NCBI GenBank assembly: GCA_028281285.1
Contig: JANQKF010000019.1
Span: 1 to 64,000, forward strand
Direction: 5' to 3'
Origin: Cyclobacteriaceae bacterium
GTDB taxonomy: Bacteria; Bacteroidota; Bacteroidia; Cytophagales; Cyclobacteriaceae
DNA: 64,000 nucleotides
The notes under the pieces were generated by a model. It worked only from the letters and a program-made list of their open reading frames with translations. It did no database searches and had not been told where the DNA came from. A program made the position numbers and the translations under genes. Numbering within the stretch: position 1 is the first letter of the stretch; every line of letters begins with the position of its first letter. Positions 12,243 to 63,833 of the stretch are shown piece after piece.

Positions 12243-14066
12243 GTGTGTGGTATTAACCTAATCATCGATAAAAATACCGGACTCCAGGATGATGTCATCC
12301 AAAGAATGAACACGGCTATTCACCATAGAGGTCCAGATGCGAGTGGATGGATAATAAAAAGGACAGAATCTCATTCAATTCACCTTGGAAATACCCGACT
12401 TCAAATCGTTGATCCGGATAAAAGATCAAACCAACCCATGGGTTCTCAGGATGAGTTGTATTGGCTAACCTTCAATGGTGAAATCTATAATTACAAAGAG
12501 CTTCGAGTTGCCCTGGAGAAAAAGGGGTATGAATTCAAGACAGAAAGCGATACGGAAGTTGCGCTCTACTGGCTAGTGGAATATGGCAAAGCCGGACTTT
12601 CAGCATTGAATGGAATGTTTGCCTTGGTTTTTCTGGATCTTATCAGCGATTCAATTCTGGTAGCTAGGGATCGGCATGGAATCAAGCCTCTTTATTATTC
12701 CAGGTATTCAAAGAGGGCATTTTTTTCTTCCGAAATCAAAGGTATTCAAGCCACAAACCTCACGAGTAATCAACTTAACGAAAACCAAATTCAGCACTAC
12801 CTACAATTCAGGTATGCAAAGGCCCCGGAAACCTTCCATAAAGGCATTTTTTCAGTCAAACCAGGTCACTGCATTTCCATCCAAAATGATGAATGGACTG
12901 AAGAAGGATTTGTAAAACATAAGCAAATCGAAACTGAAACCCTCACTATCGATCAGGTTGAGTCTCATCTCCTGAATTCAGTTGAACGCAGTTTGAAAGC
13001 CGATACTCAAGTTGGCTTATTTCTAAGTGGGGGAATTGATTCGACATTACTGTTGGCGCTATCAAAGGAGTTAGGTGTCCAAAACCTACCTACCTTCTCA
13101 ATCTCCCATTCTCTAAAGGAAGGGTCGTATGGCACCGAAGACGGGAAATTTGCAAAACTCGCCTCAGAAGTTTATGACAGTGAGCACTATGAGTTTCAGA
13201 TCAATTCAGGAATCCTCGACTCGATGGAAGAGCATCTTGGTCATATGGACCAACCCATCGGTGATAGCAGCTCCCTTCTAAGCGATTACTTGTCTAAGGA
13301 AACCGCCCGAAACGTGAAATCGGTGCTTTCAGGGGCCGGTGCAGATGAGTGGTTTGCTGGCTATAATCGTCATGAAGCCTATTATCGTTATCTGTCCAAT
13401 GGAATCATCAAGGGCAATTCCAAGATATTGCGAGGAGTGGCAAATTGGCTTCCAACTGGAATTGATCACCCGCTCAGAAAACCGTTTCAATTGGCTAAAA
13501 AATTTCTGAATAACCTTGATTCCGATCCTCAAGAGACTTATATGAATTTTTTGAGTTTTCCTTATTTCAGAGAGGTAAGACAAAGAATCGAAACAATCGA
13601 ATCAGACCTGTTTCAGTGGGCACTCAATCACGATCGATCCAACTATCTCGTAGAAGATGTTTTGTCCCTGTCTGATCAATGGACAATGAGAAACTCGATC
13701 GAGATGAGAGTGCCTTATCTGGACAATGAACTAACCAAACTGATCTCCTCCGTAGATCAAAAAGAACTGATCACAAAAGGAAAAAAATGGATTTTGAAAG
13801 ACCTGCTGACCAAGTATGGTGGACAAAAATTCGTGGATCGACCCAAGGAAGGGTTTGGCTTGCCCACGGGAAAATGGCTACAGGATGGAATGTTTCGAGA
13901 ACAACTCAACTTTTTAAACGATCCAAAGAGTATTATCTTTAAGTATATCGAAAAGGACAGAATTGCCAATTTGGTGCATGCTCATGAACGGAAGAAAGGC
14001 GATTATTCGTTAGAATTCTGGAACGTGATGACCCTGGCCAACTGGCTACAAGTCCATTTCGCCTAA
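12243..14066 (+). CDS. asnB: glutamine-hydrolysing asparagine synthase
   Basis: A 607-residue two-domain amidotransferase. The start is GTG, which places the nucleophile Cys2 directly after the initiator (MCGIN). The N-terminal class II glutaminase domain spans about 1-200 and includes the HHRGPDASG motif. The C-terminal AMP-forming synthase domain begins with the PP-loop SGGIDS at 262-267. Its stop overlaps the start of the next glycosyltransferase by one base (TAATG). In Bacteroidota such pairs often belong to surface-polysaccharide modification, so the substrate may be a sugar acid rather than aspartate. That is an inference from the neighbour. Confidence 0.92.
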   Translation: MCGINLIIDKNTGLQDDVIQRMNTAIHHRGPDASGWIIKRTESHSIHLGNTRLQIVDPDKRSNQPMGSQDELYWLTFNGEIYNYKELRVALEKKGYEFKTESDTEVALYWLVEYGKAGLSALNGMFALVFLDLISDSILVARDRHGIKPLYYSRYSKRAFFSSEIKGIQATNLTSNQLNENQIQHYLQFRYAKAPETFHKGIFSVKPGHCISIQNDEWTEEGFVKHKQIETETLTIDQVESHLLNSVERSLKADTQVGLFLSGGIDSTLLLALSKELGVQNLPTFSISHSLKEGSYGTEDGKFAKLASEVYDSEHYEFQINSGILDSMEEHLGHMDQPIGDSSSLLSDYLSKETARNVKSVLSGAGADEWFAGYNRHEAYYRYLSNGIIKGNSKILRGVANWLPTGIDHPLRKPFQLAKKFLNNLDSDPQETYMNFLSFPYFREVRQRIETIESDLFQWALNHDRSNYLVEDVLSLSDQWTMRNSIEMRVPYLDNELTKLISSVDQKELITKGKKWILKDLLTKYGGQKFVDRPKEGFGLPTGKWLQDGMFREQLNFLNDPKSIIFKYIEKDRIANLVHAHERKKGDYSLEFWNVMTLANWLQVHFA

Positions 14067-15289
14067 TGAAAATTATATACGTCCATCAGTACTTTAAAAC
14101 TCCGCAAGAAGGTGGAGCCATTCGCTCGTACTACCTGGCGAAGGGTTTGGTGGATAATGGTTTTGAAGTGGAAATGGTTACCACTCACAACGAACCCTCC
14201 TATCGACATGTAGTAATTGAAGGAATAAAGGTCCACTACCTTCCAGTTCCATACGATAATAGTATGGGATTTGTAAAGCGAGTGTTGGCATACATGGGAT
14301 TTGTTCGAAAGGCGAAAAGACGCATTCGAAAGATCAAAAATGCTGATATAGTCTATGCTACATCTACACCTTTGACGGTTGGACTTGTTGCACTCTGGGC
14401 AAAGAAAAAATTGCGGCTTCCGTATTATTTCGAAGTAAGGGATCTCTGGCCCACAGCTCCAATCGAGGTAGGTGCAGTCAAAGGAGCAATCTTCAAGAAA
14501 TGGCTTTATGGTCTTGAAGCTAAAATCTACAGAAAAGCAGAAAAGATCATCGCCTTGTCTCCAGGAATGCGGGATTGGATAAAAAAAGTTGTGCCCAAAA
14601 AAGAGGTCTATATGATCCCGAACATGGCTGACTGTGTTTTCTTTAACAAAGAAATCAAAGACCCAAAACTGGTGGATTTCTACCATGCCAGCCAACCCTT
14701 TGTAATTACCTATCTCGGATCAATAGGGATGTCCAATCACCTCGAGTTCTTTTTGGATATTGCACAGGAATCAAAAAAACAAGGGCTTAATATCAACTTC
14801 AAAATTGTAGGAACAGGCTCCCAGGTAAGTCGAATCAAGATGCTTTCTTATATGAAGAAGCTCCAGAATGTAGAGTTTTTCCCACATCAAAATAAAGAAG
14901 GTGTTAAAGACATACTCAATGTAACGGACGCCACTTACGTTTGCTTTGCCAATTTACCAGTACTTGCCACCAATAGTCCTAACAAACTTTTTGATAGCCT
15001 TGCCTCCGGAAAGCTTACCATAGTGAATACCCCGGGCTGGACCAAAGATCTGGTGGAGAATCACCAATGTGGTTTTTATGCCAACCCACTTGACCCTACC
15101 ATATTCATTGAAAAGGTTAGACCATTTCTGGAGCAACGAGAGCTATTGGAACTTTATAAAAACAATGCTCGGACCACCGCTGAAAAGCACTATTCCAGAA
15201 AGCTACAAATTGAAAAGCTGGTAAAAATCTTTAATAATGAGCAACGTCTCAAAGTTAGCGACTCTGAGGTCTATATTTTGACTGCATAG
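14066..15289 (+). CDS. WbuB-like family 4 glycosyltransferase
   Basis: A 407-residue GT-B glycosyltransferase. The N-terminal donor-side start MKIIYVHQYF followed by a Gly-rich GGAIRSYYLAKGL loop is typical of WbuB-like GT4 enzymes. A WPTAPIEVGAVK segment sits mid-domain, and the C-terminal domain contains the conserved region ATNSPNKLFDSLASGK near residue 310. It is cytosolic or membrane-associated and probably adds a sugar in O-antigen or exopolysaccharide synthesis, but no other polysaccharide genes are nearby. Its last 13 codons lie in a 38-bp sequence that is repeated at the 3' end of gldB. Confidence 0.88.
   Translation: MKIIYVHQYFKTPQEGGAIRSYYLAKGLVDNGFEVEMVTTHNEPSYRHVVIEGIKVHYLPVPYDNSMGFVKRVLAYMGFVRKAKRRIRKIKNADIVYATSTPLTVGLVALWAKKKLRLPYYFEVRDLWPTAPIEVGAVKGAIFKKWLYGLEAKIYRKAEKIIALSPGMRDWIKKVVPKKEVYMIPNMADCVFFNKEIKDPKLVDFYHASQPFVITYLGSIGMSNHLEFFLDIAQESKKQGLNINFKIVGTGSQVSRIKMLSYMKKLQNVEFFPHQNKEGVKDILNVTDATYVCFANLPVLATNSPNKLFDSLASGKLTIVNTPGWTKDLVENHQCGFYANPLDPTIFIEKVRPFLEQRELLELYKNNARTTAEKHYSRKLQIEKLVKIFNNEQRLKVSDSEVYILTA
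15251..15288. repeat. 38-bp direct repeat, left copy
   Basis: Identical over 38 bases to 15769-15806. This copy encodes the C-terminus of the glycosyltransferase (KVSDSEVYILT and the start of the final Ala-stop region). The base after the repeat completes its TAG stop codon. Confidence 0.95.
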
Positions 15290-15768
15290 ACGGCTTTTTA
15301 ATTATTCAACTAATAACTCCTTTAAAAGTGGCATTGGCGTAAATGTGCTAAGAAATTCAATAACGTATGCGGTTAAATAGGTTTCGCTGTCTGAGCGAAG
15401 CGAGTTTGAAGCCTATCAGCAATAAGTTTTTGAATTTTAGCATTTACGGCTTGCCTGAGCTCCGAGATTCTCTCGGAGTGCTTCGTTTTTGATAATGAAG
15501 ACTGATTTTCATAACTAATTGAGTCAGTAGTAGCGAGCGCTCCCCACTAAGTTTGACAAATCATCTGATTTGTCAGGTTCTGATCAATTGTACTTCTTAC
15601 TTTCTTTGCCCGTCCAAAGAAAGTAGCAAAGAAAAGACGCAAACGTCAAAACCATTGGAGGAACGTTGAAGCAAAATCAAAATATTATGGCCAATGGTCA
15701 CGCTGACGTTTGAACTCAGCCCTCGGTCACAGTTTCGAAACGGTGTTCCCATAATACCGCAGCAACTT
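15289..15768. repeat. ~480-bp hairpin-rich non-coding element between direct repeats
   Basis: No frame here resembles a protein. The segment carries several strong inverted repeats. A nested structure has outer arms 15338-15360/15430-15448, with ATAGGTTTC/GAAGCCTAT (15377-15385/15408-15416) inside. Perfect hairpins lie at 15460-15478 (8-bp stem), 15554-15575 (10-bp stem, 2-nt loop) and 15599-15624 (ACTTTCTTTG stem, 6-nt loop). A two-step stem pairs 15641-15648 with 15704-15711 and 15651-15658 with 15691-15698. The flanking direct repeats suggest insertion. No transposase or clear terminal inverted repeats were found, so it may be a non-autonomous or REP-like element. Confidence 0.7.
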
Positions 15769-15806
15769 AAAGTTAGCGACTCTGAGGTCTATATTTTGAC
15801 TGCATA
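15769..15806. repeat. 38-bp direct repeat, right copy
   Basis: Identical to 15251-15288. Read on the minus strand it encodes the last ten residues and stop codon of GldB (MQSKYRPQSR). The same bases therefore serve as the 3' end of two convergent genes, one per copy. Confidence 0.95.
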
Positions 15807-16768
15807 AGGATGTCTCTGGCATTAGTCATTGCCATCAACCTTACTAAATCTTCCCCTTCTCTTTCTTCCCATTGCTGAACCATTCTCCATCCCAGCCACC
15901 TTCCAATTCGTCCCGGACAAATGGGGTCAATCTCCGGAATGCCGGGCCTTTCATTAACATACTTTGCCAAATTCAAGGTATTCTTATCATAGAGCAATTG
16001 GTTCTCGACAAAATAAGACCAAATAAACGCCTCGCTTACCCTAATATCTGCTGATGTTTGTGGGCTATAGCCTTCAATGATGTGATCGCTTACACAGGGC
16101 ATCACAGTCTTCATAAAATGATAGGTCTTTCCGAAGAAGATCATCTCGTCCAACATGGTTTGTGAACTCAAATCAGATTTATTGAACCTGTCAGACATGC
16201 CCATTATAATAACCGGAACGAGATGTTCAGGAGTCATTCTTTCAAGCAAATACTCATAGAGGTCAGGCTTGTATTTGGAATTATCCCCCAAATAATAGTC
16301 AAGACCTATTACAATCAGAGAATCGGTGAGATAGACATCGCTGCCAAACCCTGAAACGACTGTCTGAACTTTAGGTGCCTCAAATTCTGGATAGTAGTAC
16401 TTGATTCTTTTGAAAGCGTCTTCAAATTGGAGTTGTAAGTTTTCCCCATTGCCATACACCAGTTTAACCTGCCGATAGAGCGTATCCATATCGGGACTCT
16501 TGATCAGTTTGAATACCTCTGACAACATTACATCCTTGGAAGGATAGTTGAGTTCATAGAAGAATTCCCTGGCGATTACCGGGTTGGTTTCCAAGAAACG
16601 AGCGAGTTGTGAAGTATCAGCCACAGCAAACAACTCATTTTCCAAAGGCTCCACGGTTACCGATAGCTGAATACCCGAGATATCCTGCTTATCGCTACAG
16701 GTTTTCTGCTTGCATCCTGCAATCACTAAAAGAGCCAGAAAAAATGGCAAAACTTTACGCATACCCAT
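15773..16768 (-). CDS. gldB: gliding motility lipoprotein GldB
   Basis: A 331-residue lipoprotein with signal peptide and lipobox VIAGC, giving lipidated Cys19. GldB proteins are needed for gliding and for stability of the type IX secretion/gliding machinery in Flavobacterium. The body shows the family's Zn-protease-like fold features, including the late segment GRIGRWLGWRMVQQW. It diverges from an outer-membrane barrel gene 38 bp away. Its C-terminus lies wholly within the right-hand 38-bp repeat. The usual partner gldC is not adjacent. Confidence 0.9.
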   Translation of the reverse strand: MGMRKVLPFFLALLVIAGCKQKTCSDKQDISGIQLSVTVEPLENELFAVADTSQLARFLETNPVIAREFFYELNYPSKDVMLSEVFKLIKSPDMDTLYRQVKLVYGNGENLQLQFEDAFKRIKYYYPEFEAPKVQTVVSGFGSDVYLTDSLIVIGLDYYLGDNSKYKPDLYEYLLERMTPEHLVPVIIMGMSDRFNKSDLSSQTMLDEMIFFGKTYHFMKTVMPCVSDHIIEGYSPQTSADIRVSEAFIWSYFVENQLLYDKNTLNLAKYVNERPGIPEIDPICPGRIGRWLGWRMVQQWEEREGEDLVRLMAMTNARDILMQSKYRPQSR

Positions 16769-38404: not shown

Positions 38405-40045
38405 TTAACGAATGCATCGCGAAACTCTACCGTAGTAGGTATCGGATTTAATTGTATTCATTGCTTTTCGGAAGGCTTTTTCCAATTCTGCGTCATCTCC
38501 TATTTCGTCACAAACTCCGATCAGTAAGTTTGCTCGATAGTAATCAGAATTCACATCTTCAATACCCTCCAATACTTTCAGTAGTGTGGCTTTAGAAGGA
38601 TCTCCCTTCATCAATTCCTTCAAGAGGTTCACCTTATAGTGATCAGAGAGATCATCAGAAACCTCAAGAATCTTAGTATAATTTTCCTCTGTCAGTTTAT
38701 TTCTGCTGTCCATTACTTCCTTGATAATGTTGGTTTTGTAATGGTCCGACATGCTTCTGGTCAAGCTTATGATTTCGTCAATATGCTTCCCAGAAAGATC
38801 ATCATAATTCAACATTCTCTTCACGATGTTGGTAGTATAGTGATCGGACAAGTTTCCAACTCTTTGAAGTACTTTGTCATAATCCTCGGCTTTCAACTTT
38901 TGCTTGCTCATCAACTTTGAAAGCGTGTTGCTTGAATAGTGATCGGACATATCATCGACCATATCAAGGATGGTATCGAAGTCATTTGAGCTTAAATCTT
39001 CATTGTCCAGAAGATAATTGAGAATATTGTTTCTATAGTGATCGGACATGTCGTCAGCTGATTTCAAAACATCATCAAAGTACTCAGACTTGATTTGACG
39101 ATTTCTCAACATCTTATTGAGAATCCCAGACTTGTAATGGTCTGACATATCATTAGAATATTCCAAAACCTGCTTGACCATACCTTCTTTGAAATCTCTT
39201 CTATCGATCAATTCTTTTACAATTCCTGACTTATAGTGATCTGATCCCATATCACCGGCAGCATCGAGTACTTTGGCCAACATAGCCTCACTTAAGTCTT
39301 CTCTGAGTGTTCTTTTAAGGATGATCGACACGTAGTGATCAGAATCCATTCTGCGGATCGCAGTTAAGAAAGCATCGGTAGTCTTATCGTTCTTGAGGAA
39401 GAGATCTCCGTAATCTTTAAATACCTCAGTGATATAATGATCAGAATCAAGCTCTCTTGGAACATATCCGGCAATCTTGACGAGTTCATCATCCTTAAGT
39501 CCATCAGTATCCAAAAGTTCCTGCAAGTAGATGTGACTTACATAGTCGTTTCTGATATTATCTACTTCTTCTAATACATTATCCACTCCACCACTTTTGT
39601 AGAATCGAGCTACACGAGCTTCAGCACCAATACCAGTAGTTCGGATTACTTCTAACAGGACATCCGCCAACCACTTTTTTCCTTCAGCATCAAAATCTTG
39701 CTTTCTTCGGCCTTCATAGTATTCGTATACTATTGTGCCATCAGTGTCTGGCTCTGCAGTTATTTCTCTTCTGTTTCCGAAAGAAGTGCTTCTGACCCTG
39801 AACCATCCTCCTCTGGAAATTGATTTTATTGCTTTATCATCATCTGTAAACTCTACTCGTCCTTCGTAGTCAACCTCAAGGCGGCTAGACCCTCTCTTTG
39901 AAGTATAAGTCCATCGTCCGTCTCTTTCAGAGATTGTGGTAGAGCTGCGCTGTGCCTGGGCCTCATGAACTGTTATGAACATGGCCAACAAAGCAATGGC
40001 TACTCCAACGATGATACTCCCCTTTTTCATATTGTGCGTTTTCAT
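38405..40045 (-). CDS. secreted protein with head domain and 33-residue repeats (11 units)
   Basis: A 546-residue exported protein (signal to about residue 32, EAQAQ). A head domain at about 54-135 (EVDYEGRVEFTDDD ... AEGKKWLADVLLEVIR) is shared with the next two genes. An alpha-solenoid-like region follows, with anchors SDHY at 201, 235, 268, 301, 334, 367, 400, 433 and 467, SDYY at 500 and SDTYY at 534. The period is 33-34 residues. As I recall, similar head-plus-SDY repeats occur in extensions of M56/BlaR1-type proteins, but no M56 gene is present. The likely role is an envelope interaction scaffold. The upstream ACTCAAA leader supports the first ATG. Confidence 0.85.
   Translation of the reverse strand: MKTHNMKKGSIIVGVAIALLAMFITVHEAQAQRSSTTISERDGRWTYTSKRGSSRLEVDYEGRVEFTDDDKAIKSISRGGWFRVRSTSFGNRREITAEPDTDGTIVYEYYEGRRKQDFDAEGKKWLADVLLEVIRTTGIGAEARVARFYKSGGVDNVLEEVDNIRNDYVSHIYLQELLDTDGLKDDELVKIAGYVPRELDSDHYITEVFKDYGDLFLKNDKTTDAFLTAIRRMDSDHYVSIILKRTLREDLSEAMLAKVLDAAGDMGSDHYKSGIVKELIDRRDFKEGMVKQVLEYSNDMSDHYKSGILNKMLRNRQIKSEYFDDVLKSADDMSDHYRNNILNYLLDNEDLSSNDFDTILDMVDDMSDHYSSNTLSKLMSKQKLKAEDYDKVLQRVGNLSDHYTTNIVKRMLNYDDLSGKHIDEIISLTRSMSDHYKTNIIKEVMDSRNKLTEENYTKILEVSDDLSDHYKVNLLKELMKGDPSKATLLKVLEGIEDVNSDYYRANLLIGVCDEIGDDAELEKAFRKAMNTIKSDTYYGRVSRCIR
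38426..39445 (-). repeat. eleven ~99-bp tandem coding repeats
   Basis: Each unit encodes about 33 residues anchored on an SD(H/Y)Y tetrad followed by K/x-(S/T/N)-(G/N)-(I/L)L. Nine of eleven units carry SDHY, whereas the neighbouring paralogue has only SDYY-type units. The repeats are coding and diverged at DNA level, unlike CRISPR repeats. Confidence 0.9.
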
Positions 40046-58608: not shown

Positions 58609-61218
58609 TTAGTCTTGGCGCAAATTTCGAATCGGATTGATCAGAGCCGCCCTTACCGATTGATAACCGACTGTAATCCAGGCTACAAGCAATGTGCTTC
58701 CCAAGGCCAGGGTAAATATTAAAGGCCCTAAGTCGGTGCGATACGCAAAACCAGATAGCCATTCACTCATCAAATAGTAAGACAAAGGCAAGGCGATGAT
58801 ATTCGCAACAAGAACAAGCGCCAGAAACTTTGTTGTTATCATACCCGAAACCCCAGTCACCGAGGCACCTAAAACCTTCCGAACAGCGATTTCTTTCAAC
58901 CTGTCTTTAATGGTCATATTGGCTATGGCAAACATTCCCATAAACGCAATGAATACCGCCAGAAAGGTCAAGTAGAGAAGAATGTTAGAGAGTTTCTCTT
59001 CCTGAACGTGCAATGAAGCATAGGTTTCATCCAGAAAATAATATTCGAACGGGGCACCATTGGATGCGACATTCCAAGCCTCTTCAATTTGAGTCAATGT
59101 CTGACCAATATTCGTGCTATTCAGTTTGATATAGCTGTAATCCTTCGTGTTGGTTCGGTATACAAATGCAAATGGCTTAATCTCCGACTTGAAATCAGTA
59201 AAGTGAAAGTCCTCAATAACTCCTAAGACCGTTCCGTTAATGATAGAGTCGCCATTGCTAAACATCGGAACCGGTTTTCCGACATCTTCCATGGTAAGCC
59301 CAAGATCAGAAAGTGCTTTCTTGTTGACAATCAAGTTTCCTCCCTGTGCATCCGTAGGCCTTTCCTTGTCAAAATTTCTTCCCTCAAGTAGTTCGAAGCC
59401 CATGGCATCAATAAAATCAGGGTCGGTTACGACATAGTTCATAAGCACTCCATTAGGGGTACCTACTGTCATGGTCCAGTTCAGACCTCCAATAATTCCA
59501 TCCGCTACAGAGGCACGACTTATCGCTGGTATTCTCTCCAGCTCAGCCTTGAAGGTCTCCTGGTTCGAAATTCTCCTGGAGTTTTCTATGATTAACACCT
59601 GTTCGCTTTCAAAACCCAGATCAGAATTCTGAACATACTTCAGTTGTTCAAAGACCACCAAGGTTCCTACAATCATGATCGTGGAAATCGAGAATTGAAT
59701 TACCAGCAATGTCTTACGAAGCCCTTTAGCAGATCTACCCGACTTGCTCACGATCCCCTTAACAGCACTTGCTACTTTAAAAGAGGACATGTGAAGTGCC
59801 GGGTACAAACCGGCAAGAATCCCGAAAACAACACCCGTCAAGCCGATCAACAAGAAGACTTGAAGGTTTTCAACTTGGAGCATGCTGACATTTCGGCCAA
59901 GAACATCACCCATATTGCGGAACAAAGCTTCCGCAAATACCCCTCCAATGACTATCGCAAAAATTATTGTTAGTAAGGCTTCGATCAGGAATTGGGAAAT
60001 CAATGACTTCTTATGGGCTCCAAATACTTTCCTTACTCCGATTTCTTTGAGTCGTTTCAAGGAATCAGCAATCGTAAGGTTGAGATAATTGATGCAGGAA
60101 ATCAACAAAACAAATACCCCAAGCGCCCCGAAAATATAAATGTTGTCCATGTTCCCATTCACACTCAATTCCCATTTCAAATTGGACTTTAAGTGAATGT
60201 CTGTAATCGCTTGTGTATATATAGGAGCATATCGTTCCTGGTCGGGTCTTGCTGACTCATAAAAGCCGAGCAGCTTTCCTCCCAAAGCACGCATATCAGT
60301 GTCCTGGTTAACCTTGACGTAAGTATAGTAATTCCACCATCCCCAATTATTGTCAATGTTATTGAAGTTAAGACGGGTGAGAAAATCGAAGGTGAAATGT
60401 GAAAACTCGGAAACGTCTTCAACTACCGCAGAGATGCGCTTGACTTGATTGTTGCTTCCATAAATAGTAAGTGTTTCGCCTAATACATTTTCACGTCCAA
60501 AATATTTTAAAGCCATACTTCGCGTAAGCACCATTTTATCCGGTGCATCCAATGCCGTTTTAGGCTCCCCATGAATGAATGGGAAACTAAAGACATCAAA
60601 GAAGCTGGAATCTGTTTGGATAAGTTCTTCTTCGAAATATTGTTGATCTTCATTCGCACCTATCAGGAATTTTCTTCCCCACTTAGGAAATACCCTTGTG
60701 GAAGAAGCAATCTCCGGTAGTTCACGCTGAAGGGCAATGGCTAAAGCCGGTGGTGTAGTGGCATCTGGTAGAATCCCTCCATCGGATTCGAACAGATCGA
60801 TCACCACTCGGTGAATACGATCCGAATCGTTATGGAATTTATCATAGCTAAGTTCCCCTTTGATATAAATGAAAATAAAGATAAAACATGCCATGCCTAC
60901 TCCGAGGCTCAGCAGATTCATCAGAGTATTCGTTCGATGTTTTTGCATGTTTCTCCATGCATACTTGAAATAGCTCTTGTACATGATGTTGAAATTTGAG
61001 TCTTGAATTTTCCTTTTTAGTGCGAATGGCCTGAGAAAGTGTAGTACATGAAACCAATAACTAATTCCCGCACGCCATTCACTTTTTGTTTTTCTTTCCA
61101 GCAAATAATATTCAAAGAGATCCCCTTTGACCTCTTCGAGAAGTTCTTCCCTGCAAAACCAACGGAGAAAACGATCCGCAGCTTTTGGCGGTTGATATGT
61201 ACTTGACGAATCCTTCAC
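58609..61218 (-). CDS. orphan MacB/FtsX-type permease with prefix domain
   Basis: An 869-residue permease. The prefix at about residues 1-70 (QPPKAADRFLRWFCREELLEEVKGD) leads to the core start Met79 (MYKSYFKYAWRN). Two FtsX blocks follow (IADSLKRLKEIGVRKVFGA and LKEIAVRKVLGASV). The start is GTG overlapping the stop of the upstream permease (GTGA). Its first 120 residues are nearly identical to that neighbour, while the rest is more diverged, suggesting tandem duplication with uneven divergence or gene conversion. Confidence 0.9.
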   Translation of the reverse strand: MKDSSSTYQPPKAADRFLRWFCREELLEEVKGDLFEYYLLERKTKSEWRAGISYWFHVLHFLRPFALKRKIQDSNFNIMYKSYFKYAWRNMQKHRTNTLMNLLSLGVGMACFIFIFIYIKGELSYDKFHNDSDRIHRVVIDLFESDGGILPDATTPPALAIALQRELPEIASSTRVFPKWGRKFLIGANEDQQYFEEELIQTDSSFFDVFSFPFIHGEPKTALDAPDKMVLTRSMALKYFGRENVLGETLTIYGSNNQVKRISAVVEDVSEFSHFTFDFLTRLNFNNIDNNWGWWNYYTYVKVNQDTDMRALGGKLLGFYESARPDQERYAPIYTQAITDIHLKSNLKWELSVNGNMDNIYIFGALGVFVLLISCINYLNLTIADSLKRLKEIGVRKVFGAHKKSLISQFLIEALLTIIFAIVIGGVFAEALFRNMGDVLGRNVSMLQVENLQVFLLIGLTGVVFGILAGLYPALHMSSFKVASAVKGIVSKSGRSAKGLRKTLLVIQFSISTIMIVGTLVVFEQLKYVQNSDLGFESEQVLIIENSRRISNQETFKAELERIPAISRASVADGIIGGLNWTMTVGTPNGVLMNYVVTDPDFIDAMGFELLEGRNFDKERPTDAQGGNLIVNKKALSDLGLTMEDVGKPVPMFSNGDSIINGTVLGVIEDFHFTDFKSEIKPFAFVYRTNTKDYSYIKLNSTNIGQTLTQIEEAWNVASNGAPFEYYFLDETYASLHVQEEKLSNILLYLTFLAVFIAFMGMFAIANMTIKDRLKEIAVRKVLGASVTGVSGMITTKFLALVLVANIIALPLSYYLMSEWLSGFAYRTDLGPLIFTLALGSTLLVAWITVGYQSVRAALINPIRNLRQD
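60985..61001 (-). promoter_or_regulatory. internal ACTCAAA-N10-ATG motif
   Basis: ACTCAAA at 60995-61001 lies 10 bases before the ATG of Met79. In frame the motif is part of QDSNFNIM. Confidence 0.45.
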
Positions 61219-63833
61219 CCTCCCGTTCTGAGTCCATGAATCGGATTCTTTCGACCAGCATTTGAGGCCCTAAGTCCTGCGGTTAGAATCACCGACAAAA
61301 GGCCAATTCCAAACACTATCAATACAGTGGATAGGTCGATCGAAGTACGATAAGCGAATCCCTCAAGCCAACGAGTCATAACTCTGTAGGCTATTGGTAT
61401 TCCGATTATATTGGCTACGATCACCAGAAGTACAAATCTCTTGGTAAGAGAGAAGGAAATATGCGATAGGGAAGCTCCCAAAACCTTTCGAATGGAAATT
61501 TCTTTCTTCCTGTTCTGAATTGTAATGTTAGAGATGGCAAGCATGCCCATCATAGCCACAAAAATTGCTAACACAGTGACATAAAGAAGTACCTGTTTCA
61601 GCTTTTGTTCTTCAATGTGAAGTGTTTGAAATGTCTGATCGAGAAAAGCATAGTCCATTGAAGTACCATTCGAGAACTCCTTCCACTTAGATTCGATTTT
61701 TTCAAGAGACTCTGAAAGACCGTCCGTGGCGAGTTTCACGCTGAGAAAATTGACACCATCATCGTTATAGAAAAGTGCCATTGGTTTTATTTCGTTTTTA
61801 AAACTCCTAAAATGAAAGTCTTTGACCACTCCTAGTACTGTGCCATAGACAATCGAGTCTCCTTTTTGCTTATCCAAAGGTAAAAGCCGGCCTACATCAC
61901 CCAGCTCTAGCCCAAGGCTTTCCAACCCTTGTTCATTCACAATCATTTGGAGTCCCTGCTTATCTACTTCCAAAGCACTATTAAAATTTCGGCCTGATAT
62001 CAGTTCCAAACCGAGAGTTTCAATAAATTCAGGGTCCGTATTCACAAAATTCATAACAAAAGAATTAGGATAACCCAAACTTGTAGTCGAATAGAAATCA
62101 CCAATCATACCATTGGAGCTGGTCACCGATTCGACAGCTGGAATATTGAGAAGTTGTGATTTGAAAAGATCAAGATTATTGACTGAGCTTATGTTCTCTA
62201 TCACCAAGACTTGATTGACATCGAGGCCGAGGTTTTGATCTTGGATGAAGTTGAGCTGCCTTTGAACCACTAATACTCCCAGAATCATGAATGATGAGAT
62301 AGTGAACTGAATAATCAACAATCCCCTTTGAAGGCGATATTTCTTCTTTCCTGTACTTCCAAATATGCCTCGAACGGCATTTGATACTTTATGAGATGAA
62401 AGAAACAATGCCTGATAAAGTCCCAGAAACAGTCCGAAAGCCAAAACACCTAACGATAAGGTCAATAAAATGGAGAGATTGTCTGCATCGAGCAAGGATA
62501 TTTTACTTCCAAGTAGCTCATCAAAATTCAGGAAGAGCAATTCCGAAAATAATACTGCGAGTATCAACGAAACGATCAGTATGAGGAAAGACTCTACCAA
62601 AAACTGGCGTATCAAAAGTCTTTTATTTGCCCCGTAGACCTTGCGAACACCAACTTCCTTTAATCTTTTGAATGAATGGGCTATTGATAGGTTCAGGTAG
62701 TTAAGACATGATACTATTAATAGGAATACTCCCAGTGCCGAGAAAATGTAAACATTGGACATATTTCCGTTCGCCCCAAGCTCAAACTTCAAATTAGACC
62801 GAAGATGAATTGTGGTTATAGGCTGTGTGTATATGATGTTATTCTTATCATTCGGATTGGTCACCTTCGTTTCATAATAAGGCTGAAGTTTGTTCTCAAA
62901 TTCATTCGAATTCGATTCCGGACTCAATCGTATATAGGTGTAGAAGTTGAACCATCCCCAATTTTTATTGATCCAATAAAAGGTCAGGGGGGTTAGGAAA
63001 TCGAAATCGAAATGTGAGTTGTCAGGTATATCTTCTAAAACAGCACTGACCAAATGGGGCTTATTATCGAATGAGTAAACTGTCAACGTTTCGCCTACCA
63101 CATCCACTTTGGAAAAATACTTCAGCGCCATGCTTTTGGTAATTACAATTTTATCTGGCGCGTTTAAGGCTTCATCCAAATTTCCATGCAAGACAGGGAA
63201 GTCGAAAACATCAAAAAAAGTAGAATCGACTCTGATCAGTCCTTTCTCATAAAAGCGCTGTTGATCACTAGTGCCAATTAAAAATTTACTGCCCCAAGCC
63301 GGGAACAATCGGGTCGAAGCCTCTACTTCCGGAAAATCCTTCTCTAGTGCCAATGACAAGGCAGGTGGAGTAGTAGCATCTGGGATTCTGACTCCTTGGT
63401 CATCCACGAAGTCAATCACCACACGCTGAATTGAGTCTGCTTCACGATGGAATTTGTCATAACTTAACTCCTTGTTGATATAAATGGAAATGAATATGAA
63501 ACAAGCTATACCAACACTTAGGCTTAGCAAATTCATTAGCGTATTCATCCGATGTTTTTGCATGTTTCTCCATGCAAACTTGAAATAGCTCTTGTACATG
63601 ATGTTGAAATTTGAGTCTTGAGTTTTCCTTTTTAATGCGAATGGTCTGAGAAAATGAAGTACATGAAACCAATAGCTGACTCCAGCTCGCCATTCACTCT
63701 TTGTTTTTCTTTCCAGCAAATAATTTTCCAGAAGGTCCCCTTTAACCTCTTCGAGAAGTTCTTCCCTGCAAAACCAACCGAGAAAACGGTTGGCCCATTT
63801 TGGTGGTTGATATTCTTTAGTTCGTCTCTCCAA
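61215..63833 (-). CDS. orphan MacB/FtsX-type permease with prefix domain
   Basis: An 872-residue permease closely related to its downstream neighbour, starting with TTG (MERRTKEYQPPKWANRFLG). The prefix domain, core start at Met79 (MYKSYFKFAWRNM), periplasmic domain and FtsX blocks (HSFKRLKEVGVRKVYGA and KEISIRKVLGASL) are intact. The 5' end overlaps a PadR gene by 17 bases. Together with the neighbour this is a PadR-permease-permease operon, mirroring 29814-35415 on the other strand. Confidence 0.9.
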   Translation of the reverse strand: MERRTKEYQPPKWANRFLGWFCREELLEEVKGDLLENYLLERKTKSEWRAGVSYWFHVLHFLRPFALKRKTQDSNFNIMYKSYFKFAWRNMQKHRMNTLMNLLSLSVGIACFIFISIYINKELSYDKFHREADSIQRVVIDFVDDQGVRIPDATTPPALSLALEKDFPEVEASTRLFPAWGSKFLIGTSDQQRFYEKGLIRVDSTFFDVFDFPVLHGNLDEALNAPDKIVITKSMALKYFSKVDVVGETLTVYSFDNKPHLVSAVLEDIPDNSHFDFDFLTPLTFYWINKNWGWFNFYTYIRLSPESNSNEFENKLQPYYETKVTNPNDKNNIIYTQPITTIHLRSNLKFELGANGNMSNVYIFSALGVFLLIVSCLNYLNLSIAHSFKRLKEVGVRKVYGANKRLLIRQFLVESFLILIVSLILAVLFSELLFLNFDELLGSKISLLDADNLSILLTLSLGVLAFGLFLGLYQALFLSSHKVSNAVRGIFGSTGKKKYRLQRGLLIIQFTISSFMILGVLVVQRQLNFIQDQNLGLDVNQVLVIENISSVNNLDLFKSQLLNIPAVESVTSSNGMIGDFYSTTSLGYPNSFVMNFVNTDPEFIETLGLELISGRNFNSALEVDKQGLQMIVNEQGLESLGLELGDVGRLLPLDKQKGDSIVYGTVLGVVKDFHFRSFKNEIKPMALFYNDDGVNFLSVKLATDGLSESLEKIESKWKEFSNGTSMDYAFLDQTFQTLHIEEQKLKQVLLYVTVLAIFVAMMGMLAISNITIQNRKKEISIRKVLGASLSHISFSLTKRFVLLVIVANIIGIPIAYRVMTRWLEGFAYRTSIDLSTVLIVFGIGLLSVILTAGLRASNAGRKNPIHGLRTGG
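63600..63616 (-). promoter_or_regulatory. internal ACTCAAA-N10-ATG motif
   Basis: ACTCAAA at 63610-63616 lies 10 bases before the core Met79. The surrounding 40 bases match the copy in the adjacent paralogue. Confidence 0.45.

Follow-up and report, generated by a model that had tools for sequence, protein, structure and literature searches.

Some integrative elements, such as islands and prophages, use the 3′ end of a gene as their attachment site, and direct repeats restore this end around the foreign DNA. Insertion sequences also leave a short direct repeat of the target on either side of the insert, usually of 2–14 bp, and template-switch events of the MMBIR type insert ectopic DNA together with a local duplication. 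REP/BIME palindromic repeats are dispersed intergenic hairpins, the REP unit being 20–40 bp long (PMC3733652). Discussions of gene overlaps (e.g. PMC3887535, PMC2268670) usually let them arise or disappear via changes of start and stop codons. In a literature search covering few subscription journals, neither the separation of an overlap by duplication, nor long target duplications in bacteria, nor attachment sites in convergent overlaps were found among the matches listed.

The junction described here, between a glycosyltransferase gene (GT) and gldB in the draft genome of a Cyclobacteriaceae bacterium (G000), shares something with each of these systems. Direct repeats restore gene ends around foreign DNA as they do at integrative elements, but no integrase is seen, the inserts found in G000 and in a sister genome (G011) are shorter than 1 kb, and two convergent genes are restored at once. 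A direct repeat of the target flanks the insert on either side, as with insertion sequences; however, the repeats measure 38 and 47 nt, the G000 insert holds no transposase-sized ORF, in agreement with the initial annotation, and the repeat finder reported no terminal inverted repeats of at least 12 nt for it. Part of the insert resembles REP/BIME repeats in being a dispersed intergenic hairpin sequence, although it is ~130 nt long, with two different proposed hairpins, and no Y1 (RAYT-type) transposase was found in G000. Ectopic DNA inserted with a local duplication also recalls MMBIR, whereas for the left part of the insert G000 yielded no template copy.

The GT/gldB junction in G000 and its relatives

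The window, a stretch of 64,000 nucleotides, lies on contig C20 of the 5.16-Mb draft of G000 (other labels in G denote genomes of relatives, those in L loci). A 38-bp sequence occurs in it twice, at 15251–15288 and 15769–15806, with 38/38 identity and 518 bp from start to start; the extended alignment is 92% identical over 48 nt. The first copy terminates the GT gene (14066–15289, plus strand), a GT family 4-type ORF with PF13579, PF13439 and PF00534 above cut-off. The second terminates gldB (15773–16768, minus strand), which encodes a gliding motility lipoprotein (TIGR03514 above cut-off, 199.9 bits; PF25594). The initial annotation had proposed that collapsing the repeat would give back a convergent overlap with both frames intact. 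When the repeat was collapsed by script, a GT of 407 aa and a GldB of 331 aa were indeed obtained, both unchanged, with a convergent overlap of 35 bp.

The strand opposite the GldB C-terminus encodes the C-terminal tail of the GT, KVSDSEVYILTA; EVYILTA lies antisense to the GldB end SKYRP. Copy 1 ends two bases (TA) into the GT stop codon, whose third base, a G giving TAG, is the first base of the insert; the stop at this point is TAA in the five other loci shown (L010, L011, L012, L016 and L026). Similarity past the repeats is weak in G000 (p 0.05 on the left, 0.21 on the right). That the duplicated overlap is seen in two separate assemblies, with a different insert in each, makes an artefact of assembly unlikely.

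We compared the orthologous junction in relatives, all represented by draft genomes: 18 congeners, which with G000 make a genus set of 19; other searches covered 39 genomes (G000 and 38 others). The uninterrupted overlap anticipated by the initial annotation is present, at exactly 35 bp in 11 of the 18 congeners; with 41 bp in G003 and 32 bp in G015, 13/18 carry an overlap of 32–41 bp. This is the single-copy empty site expected of a transposon insertion with target-site duplication. The overlap measures just 4 bp in three congeners (G004, G005 and G014), one (G008) has no GT beside gldB within the fetched stretch, and in G011, the only opened junction among the 18, the GT and gldB stops are 896 bp apart. 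The tail EVYILTA is found in 12 of the 13 congeners with a 32–41-bp overlap, G015 ending in EVYIST, and is absent from the three with a 4-bp overlap. The tail can be lost, and so the GT may not depend on it.

Outside the genus, 11 loci from other genera comprise four overlaps (35, 32, 4 and 4 bp), one GT at a distance of 104 bp and six loci without a GT beside gldB. A GldB search added five named relatives, including a Cytophagales MAG (42% identity), Echinicola and Lunatimonas (39% each); two of these gldB loci overlap a GT (35 and 29 bp) and three have none. A family-wide motif search gave 30 loci, a sample which, being picked by motif, carries no information on frequency. Sixteen of them have gldB (two genomes already counted), with overlaps all of 32–38 bp, and the remaining 14, without gldB in the fetched stretch, were taken as chance matches. 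A longer motif is present in 55 of 390 family genomes and occurs in two exact copies only in G000; it misses the second G011 copy by one base, and a looser pattern shows that copy. Two nearby motif copies are confined to G000 and G011 among the 19 genomes of the genus. Because 13 of the 18 congeners have a 32–41-bp overlap, the comparison clearly indicates that the GT/gldB overlap is the ancestral state.

The gldB genes of the same collection show one further feature. In 11 congeners (loci L017–L025, L027 and L029) the GldB open frame is 430–436 aa long, and the query finds a second match, at 22–30% identity, in an N-terminal stretch of ~100 residues, perhaps an internal N-terminal duplication.

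Composition of the 480-bp insert

The DNA between the two repeat copies (15289–15768) is absent from the GT/gldB junction of the 13 overlap-bearing congeners. It contains no ORF of at least 60 aa, and so is non-coding as first described. The initial annotation had also called it rich in perfect inverted repeats. The insert does fold better than its shuffles (z −5.7, 0/100 as good), but the repeat finder lists only one inverted repeat of at least 12 nt in 15100–16000, and the hairpin richness rests on shorter stems of ~7–11 pairs in the predicted fold. A long imperfect hairpin is predicted in the centroid structure at 15330–15455, in the part of the insert for which no other copy was found. It is followed by a terminator-like hairpin of nine pairs and a T-rich stretch (15459–15479, plus strand; 1 found against 0.6 expected from shuffles). 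Promoter-like matches in 15200–15850 number 4 against 1.1 expected, and no Rfam family was found in the window at gathering scores.

A search for further copies of 15289–15768, suggested by the initial annotation, was successful for ~130 bp of it. The segment 15595–15725 (plus strand) is a dispersed REP-like repeat with two proposed hairpins. It has eight further matches in G000, and of the 38 other genomes searched, 7 also gave matches. Across eight aligned copies, 96.7% of cells are paired and changes on both sides occur at 7/24 pairs. The covariation score was reached by 0/500 shuffles; the score for further pair types was below that of shuffles (499/500 as high). The single-sequence fold of the insert forms hairpin 1 of the repeat, with hairpin 2 missing, and GTAG follows hairpin 1 in three of the eight aligned copies. 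Y1_Tnp has no match in G000 and matches in 14 of the 18 congeners. Dispersed copies with conserved hairpins, as in REP/BIME, were found for this segment only. For the left 272 bp (15289–15560), no match at E ≤ 0.1 was obtained in the rest of G000, and the other 38 genomes gave only matches of 18–41 bp, all with E > 0.001 (best 0.0013 outside its own locus).

The whole insert is therefore not one multicopy element. Given that only 15595–15725 is dispersed and that the left 272 bp has short, weak matches, the insert is a patchwork rather than a single mobile element. Insertion with duplication of the target, the interpretation first offered, is the best reading because the uninterrupted overlap of ~35 bp is found in relatives. 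A transposon as the agent is unsupported: the insert has no ORF of at least 60 aa, no terminal inverted repeats of at least 12 nt were reported, and the sister species has a different insert at this site.

The sister junction and the origin of the duplications

G011 is the closest relative of G000, with 66–67% identity in GldB and 85–86% in the GT. It carries the overlap block twice, as a 28-bp identical core within 47 nt with 4 mismatches, the similarity running beyond the core on both sides (p 0.02 on the left, 0.016 on the right). Its insert is occupied by a compact ORF for a 271-aa CPBP-type protease (PF02517), which was matched in none of the other 38 genomes searched, G000 among them. 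No significant similarity was detected between the G000 and G011 inserts (score 31, which 35/200 shuffles reach). The dispersed repeat has six matches in G011, none on its contig C20, where the sister insert sits. Since G011 is only 66–67% identical in GldB, the timing of events is coarse.

The four copies of the block can be compared at 38 aligned sites, six of them variable: four group the copies by genome, none by gene role, and two otherwise. The two G000 copies show 0/38 differences between them, while 66% of four-fold sites differ between the genomes (47/71 in gldB, 96/145 in GT). In the gldB copy, 0/7 degenerate same-residue codons changed between G000 and G011, against 124/206 over the whole gene (P ~0.0016 if codons are independent); what did change there is one M (to T), two Q (each to R) and the stop, from TAA to TGA. 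Five of the 12 GT-copy codons differ, all synonymously, and this copy is likewise invariant over GAG-GTC-TAT-ATT-TTG. Such a pattern would be expected if the divergence arose while the block was a single overlapping copy under the GT frame, which favours two later, independent duplications. The 0/7 codon result could also reflect continued constraint on a short block. The likeness of copies within each genome by itself points to either two independent events or one event followed by gene conversion.

We propose, at roughly even confidence, that the ancestral 35-bp overlap was opened in G000 by an insertion that did not involve a transposase and duplicated its target, and that a separate event took place in G011. 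Starting from convergent GT and gldB genes overlapping by 35 bp, the G000 lineage would have received 480 bp of DNA at the overlap, with ~38 bp of target copied and both 3′ ends left whole. In the G011 lineage, a different compact single-gene piece would have been added at the same overlap, with ~47 bp duplicated. The likeliest step would be a staggered break with fill-in, or a replication template switch stepping back ~40 nt, by which foreign or ectopic DNA would be joined into the site. Selection would then keep those cases in which the duplicated block covers the overlap, though the GT end may be under weak selection, since three congeners are without the GT tail. Of this sequence of events, the ancestral overlap, the duplication, the difference between the inserts and the likeness of the copies within each genome are observed, while the independence of the two events, the chemistry of the break or template switch and the sieving by selection are inferred. 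Ku was found in 0/19 genomes of the genus (a control search found it in 1/14 known genomes, Bacillus subtilis), which argues against classical end joining. Together with the lack of a Y1 transposase in G000 and of any ORF resembling a transposase or an integrase in the two inserts, this leads us to prefer a break or template-switch event. Template switching within G000 itself is unsupported, because no donor copy of the left part of the insert was found.

That so rare an outcome is shared by two sister genomes and missing from all other congeners could alternatively go back to a single insertion and duplication before the split of G000 and G011, after which the insert would have turned over and gene conversion would have kept the copies alike. 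This history is simpler than two events and accounts for the restriction of the doubled motif to two sister genomes of the 19 in the genus. We nevertheless consider it unlikely: the two inserts are without significant similarity, the copies are alike within genomes in spite of the divergence at four-fold sites, and 38 bp is short for gene conversion. Rather less probable, in our opinion, is site-specific integration, with the overlap as attB, the repeats as attL and attR, and an integrase since lost. Elements with their target in a gene 3′ end, which they restore on integration, use att sites in this manner. Identical repeats flank the insert with both gene ends restored, their lengths of 38 and 47 nt are att-like, and different cargo occupies one site in two genomes. 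However, neither insert has an integrase-like ORF, the 23-base repeat motif has 0 exact matches in viral contigs, and two exact motif copies occur only in G000 among the 390 family genomes, where the pattern misses the second G011 copy. No larger motif-bracketed island was seen, and no related element occupies the site, the other 17 congeners having either the overlap or no GT beside gldB.

The borders of the dispersed repeat bear on whether a non-autonomous REP-like or MITE-like element entered the overlap by transposition, duplicating an unusually long stretch of target. The insert does contain a dispersed, structurally conserved repeat, another copy of which is flanked by 19-bp direct repeats, but ~306 bp of insert lie to its left and 43 bp to its right. 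Exact flanking direct repeats longer than 10 bp accompany only two of the eight G000 copies (L001–L008), and their lengths differ (38 and 19). Moreover, G000 has no Y1 transposase, though 14 of 18 congeners do, and no G011 match of the repeat is on the contig of the sister insert; such a transposition thus seems very doubtful. A larger tandem duplication across the junction, with inner gldB and GT fragments that later decayed, would likewise yield a duplicated overlap between intact outer genes. The similarity reaching 47 nt on both sides of the G011 core would suit it, as would the one significant result among nine insert comparisons, between the right end of the G011 insert and GT (score 37, 0/200 shuffles). 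That match, however, is not collinear with such an origin, its distance being ~93 bp to the insert end and ~237 bp to the GT block. Neither end of the G000 insert resembles the gldB or GT 3′ region, and decay of the fragments beside an unchanged 38-bp block is unlikely, so that we disfavour this origin as highly improbable.

This junction is a clear example, backed by empty sites, of a gene overlap removed through duplication while both proteins remain unchanged, each copy being freed from double coding. It also offers a route to detect insertions with long duplications. Both genes stay whole only where the duplication spans the overlap, and a minimum duplication length is thereby recorded.

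Other junctions and direct repeats

A broader proposal, which we advance tentatively and rate as improbable, is that in some bacteria without Ku short foreign or ectopic DNA is captured at gene 3′ ends with 19 to ~50 bp of target duplicated. Convergent overlaps would be natural traps, insertions that copy the whole overlap alone leaving both genes whole, and GT/gldB would have been opened twice independently. Candidate sites in G000 are the window junction (15251–15806), C4:11425–11674 and C1:31384–32151.

On contig C4, a conserved convergent junction carries the dispersed repeat inside an insert of 212 bp, bounded by 19-bp direct repeats; this second case in G000 speaks for the event proposed at GT/gldB. 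The gene pair, encoding DUF4097 and DUF1835 proteins, is convergent in the relatives read, and its spacing there is −14 to 82 bp in 15/16 junctions printed; G011 has a 236-bp spacer of other sequence (L141:1126–1363). By reading, copy 1 would correspond to the second half and T-run of the terminator hairpin of the first gene, and copy 2 to the coding end of the other. At C1:31384–32151 (L127:11384–12151), a second copy of ~50 bp from the 3′ end of a 555-aa ORF stands 713 bp downstream, past a 127-aa ORF. Three relatives (79–86% identity) have one copy of the end in the fetched stretch, followed by other genes, and no exact empty site could be read. Two minus-strand ORFs after this candidate presumably represent an AbiE-like toxin-antitoxin pair.

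Direct repeats around copies of the dispersed repeat are convincing at only two of 15 loci, L001 and L003. A 16-bp direct repeat at L054 was discarded, as it falls inside another dispersed repeat; this locus, another wide convergent spacer read in G011, is likewise filled with repeats.

We scanned 1,169,379 bases of G000 (22.7%) for exact direct repeats of at least 15 bp, 60–4000 bp apart, leaving out deep coding sequence and applying a low-complexity filter. The scan gave 19 rows, with the window repeat among the two longest (38 bp); the other long row, on C1, looks like a dispersed repeat. Judged from the printed ORF lists, only the window pair among the 19 rows has both copies as coding 3′ ends of two different genes. 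The same bases contain 137 convergent ORF pairs, 33 of them overlapping and 10 with more than 150 bp between them, and two of these 10 wide spacers, those of the window and C4, are bracketed by exact direct repeats of at least 15 bp at the gene ends. When gene 3′ and 5′ ends of G000 were compared as queries, 11 and 7 edge or intergenic matches were obtained in 905 and 908 queries, respectively; the window GT/gldB event enters the 11 twice, and several rows in both sets resemble paralogues. Small stretches of G011, G007 and G009 gave 4 and 0 matches in 111 and 113 queries, the G011 event being counted twice. There is no clear enrichment of such duplications at gene 3′ ends over 5′ ends, a point against the explanation preferred above.

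Some further repeats were encountered in G000. At C20:108024–108944 (L113:4024–4944), a 17-bp direct repeat, GAAAAACACAATTTTTG, stands at the start of an ORF that we take to be AraC-like and again before the next gene. This repeat (C20:108026) was set aside as the probable operator of that ORF; it is possibly another duplicated end. On C1, a small ORF, presumably GIY-YIG-like, lies between 15-bp direct repeats (L129:15705–16254), the second of which is in the 3′ end of a minus-strand gene; this arrangement may be due to chance. In the window, a 29-nt repeat occurs in four copies with 99- or 201-bp spacing at 38628–39055, and is probably a coding repeat. Direct repeats 2615 bp apart at 60569–63483 (300 nt at 62%, with exact stretches of up to 72 nt nearby) are probably neighbouring paralogous genes.
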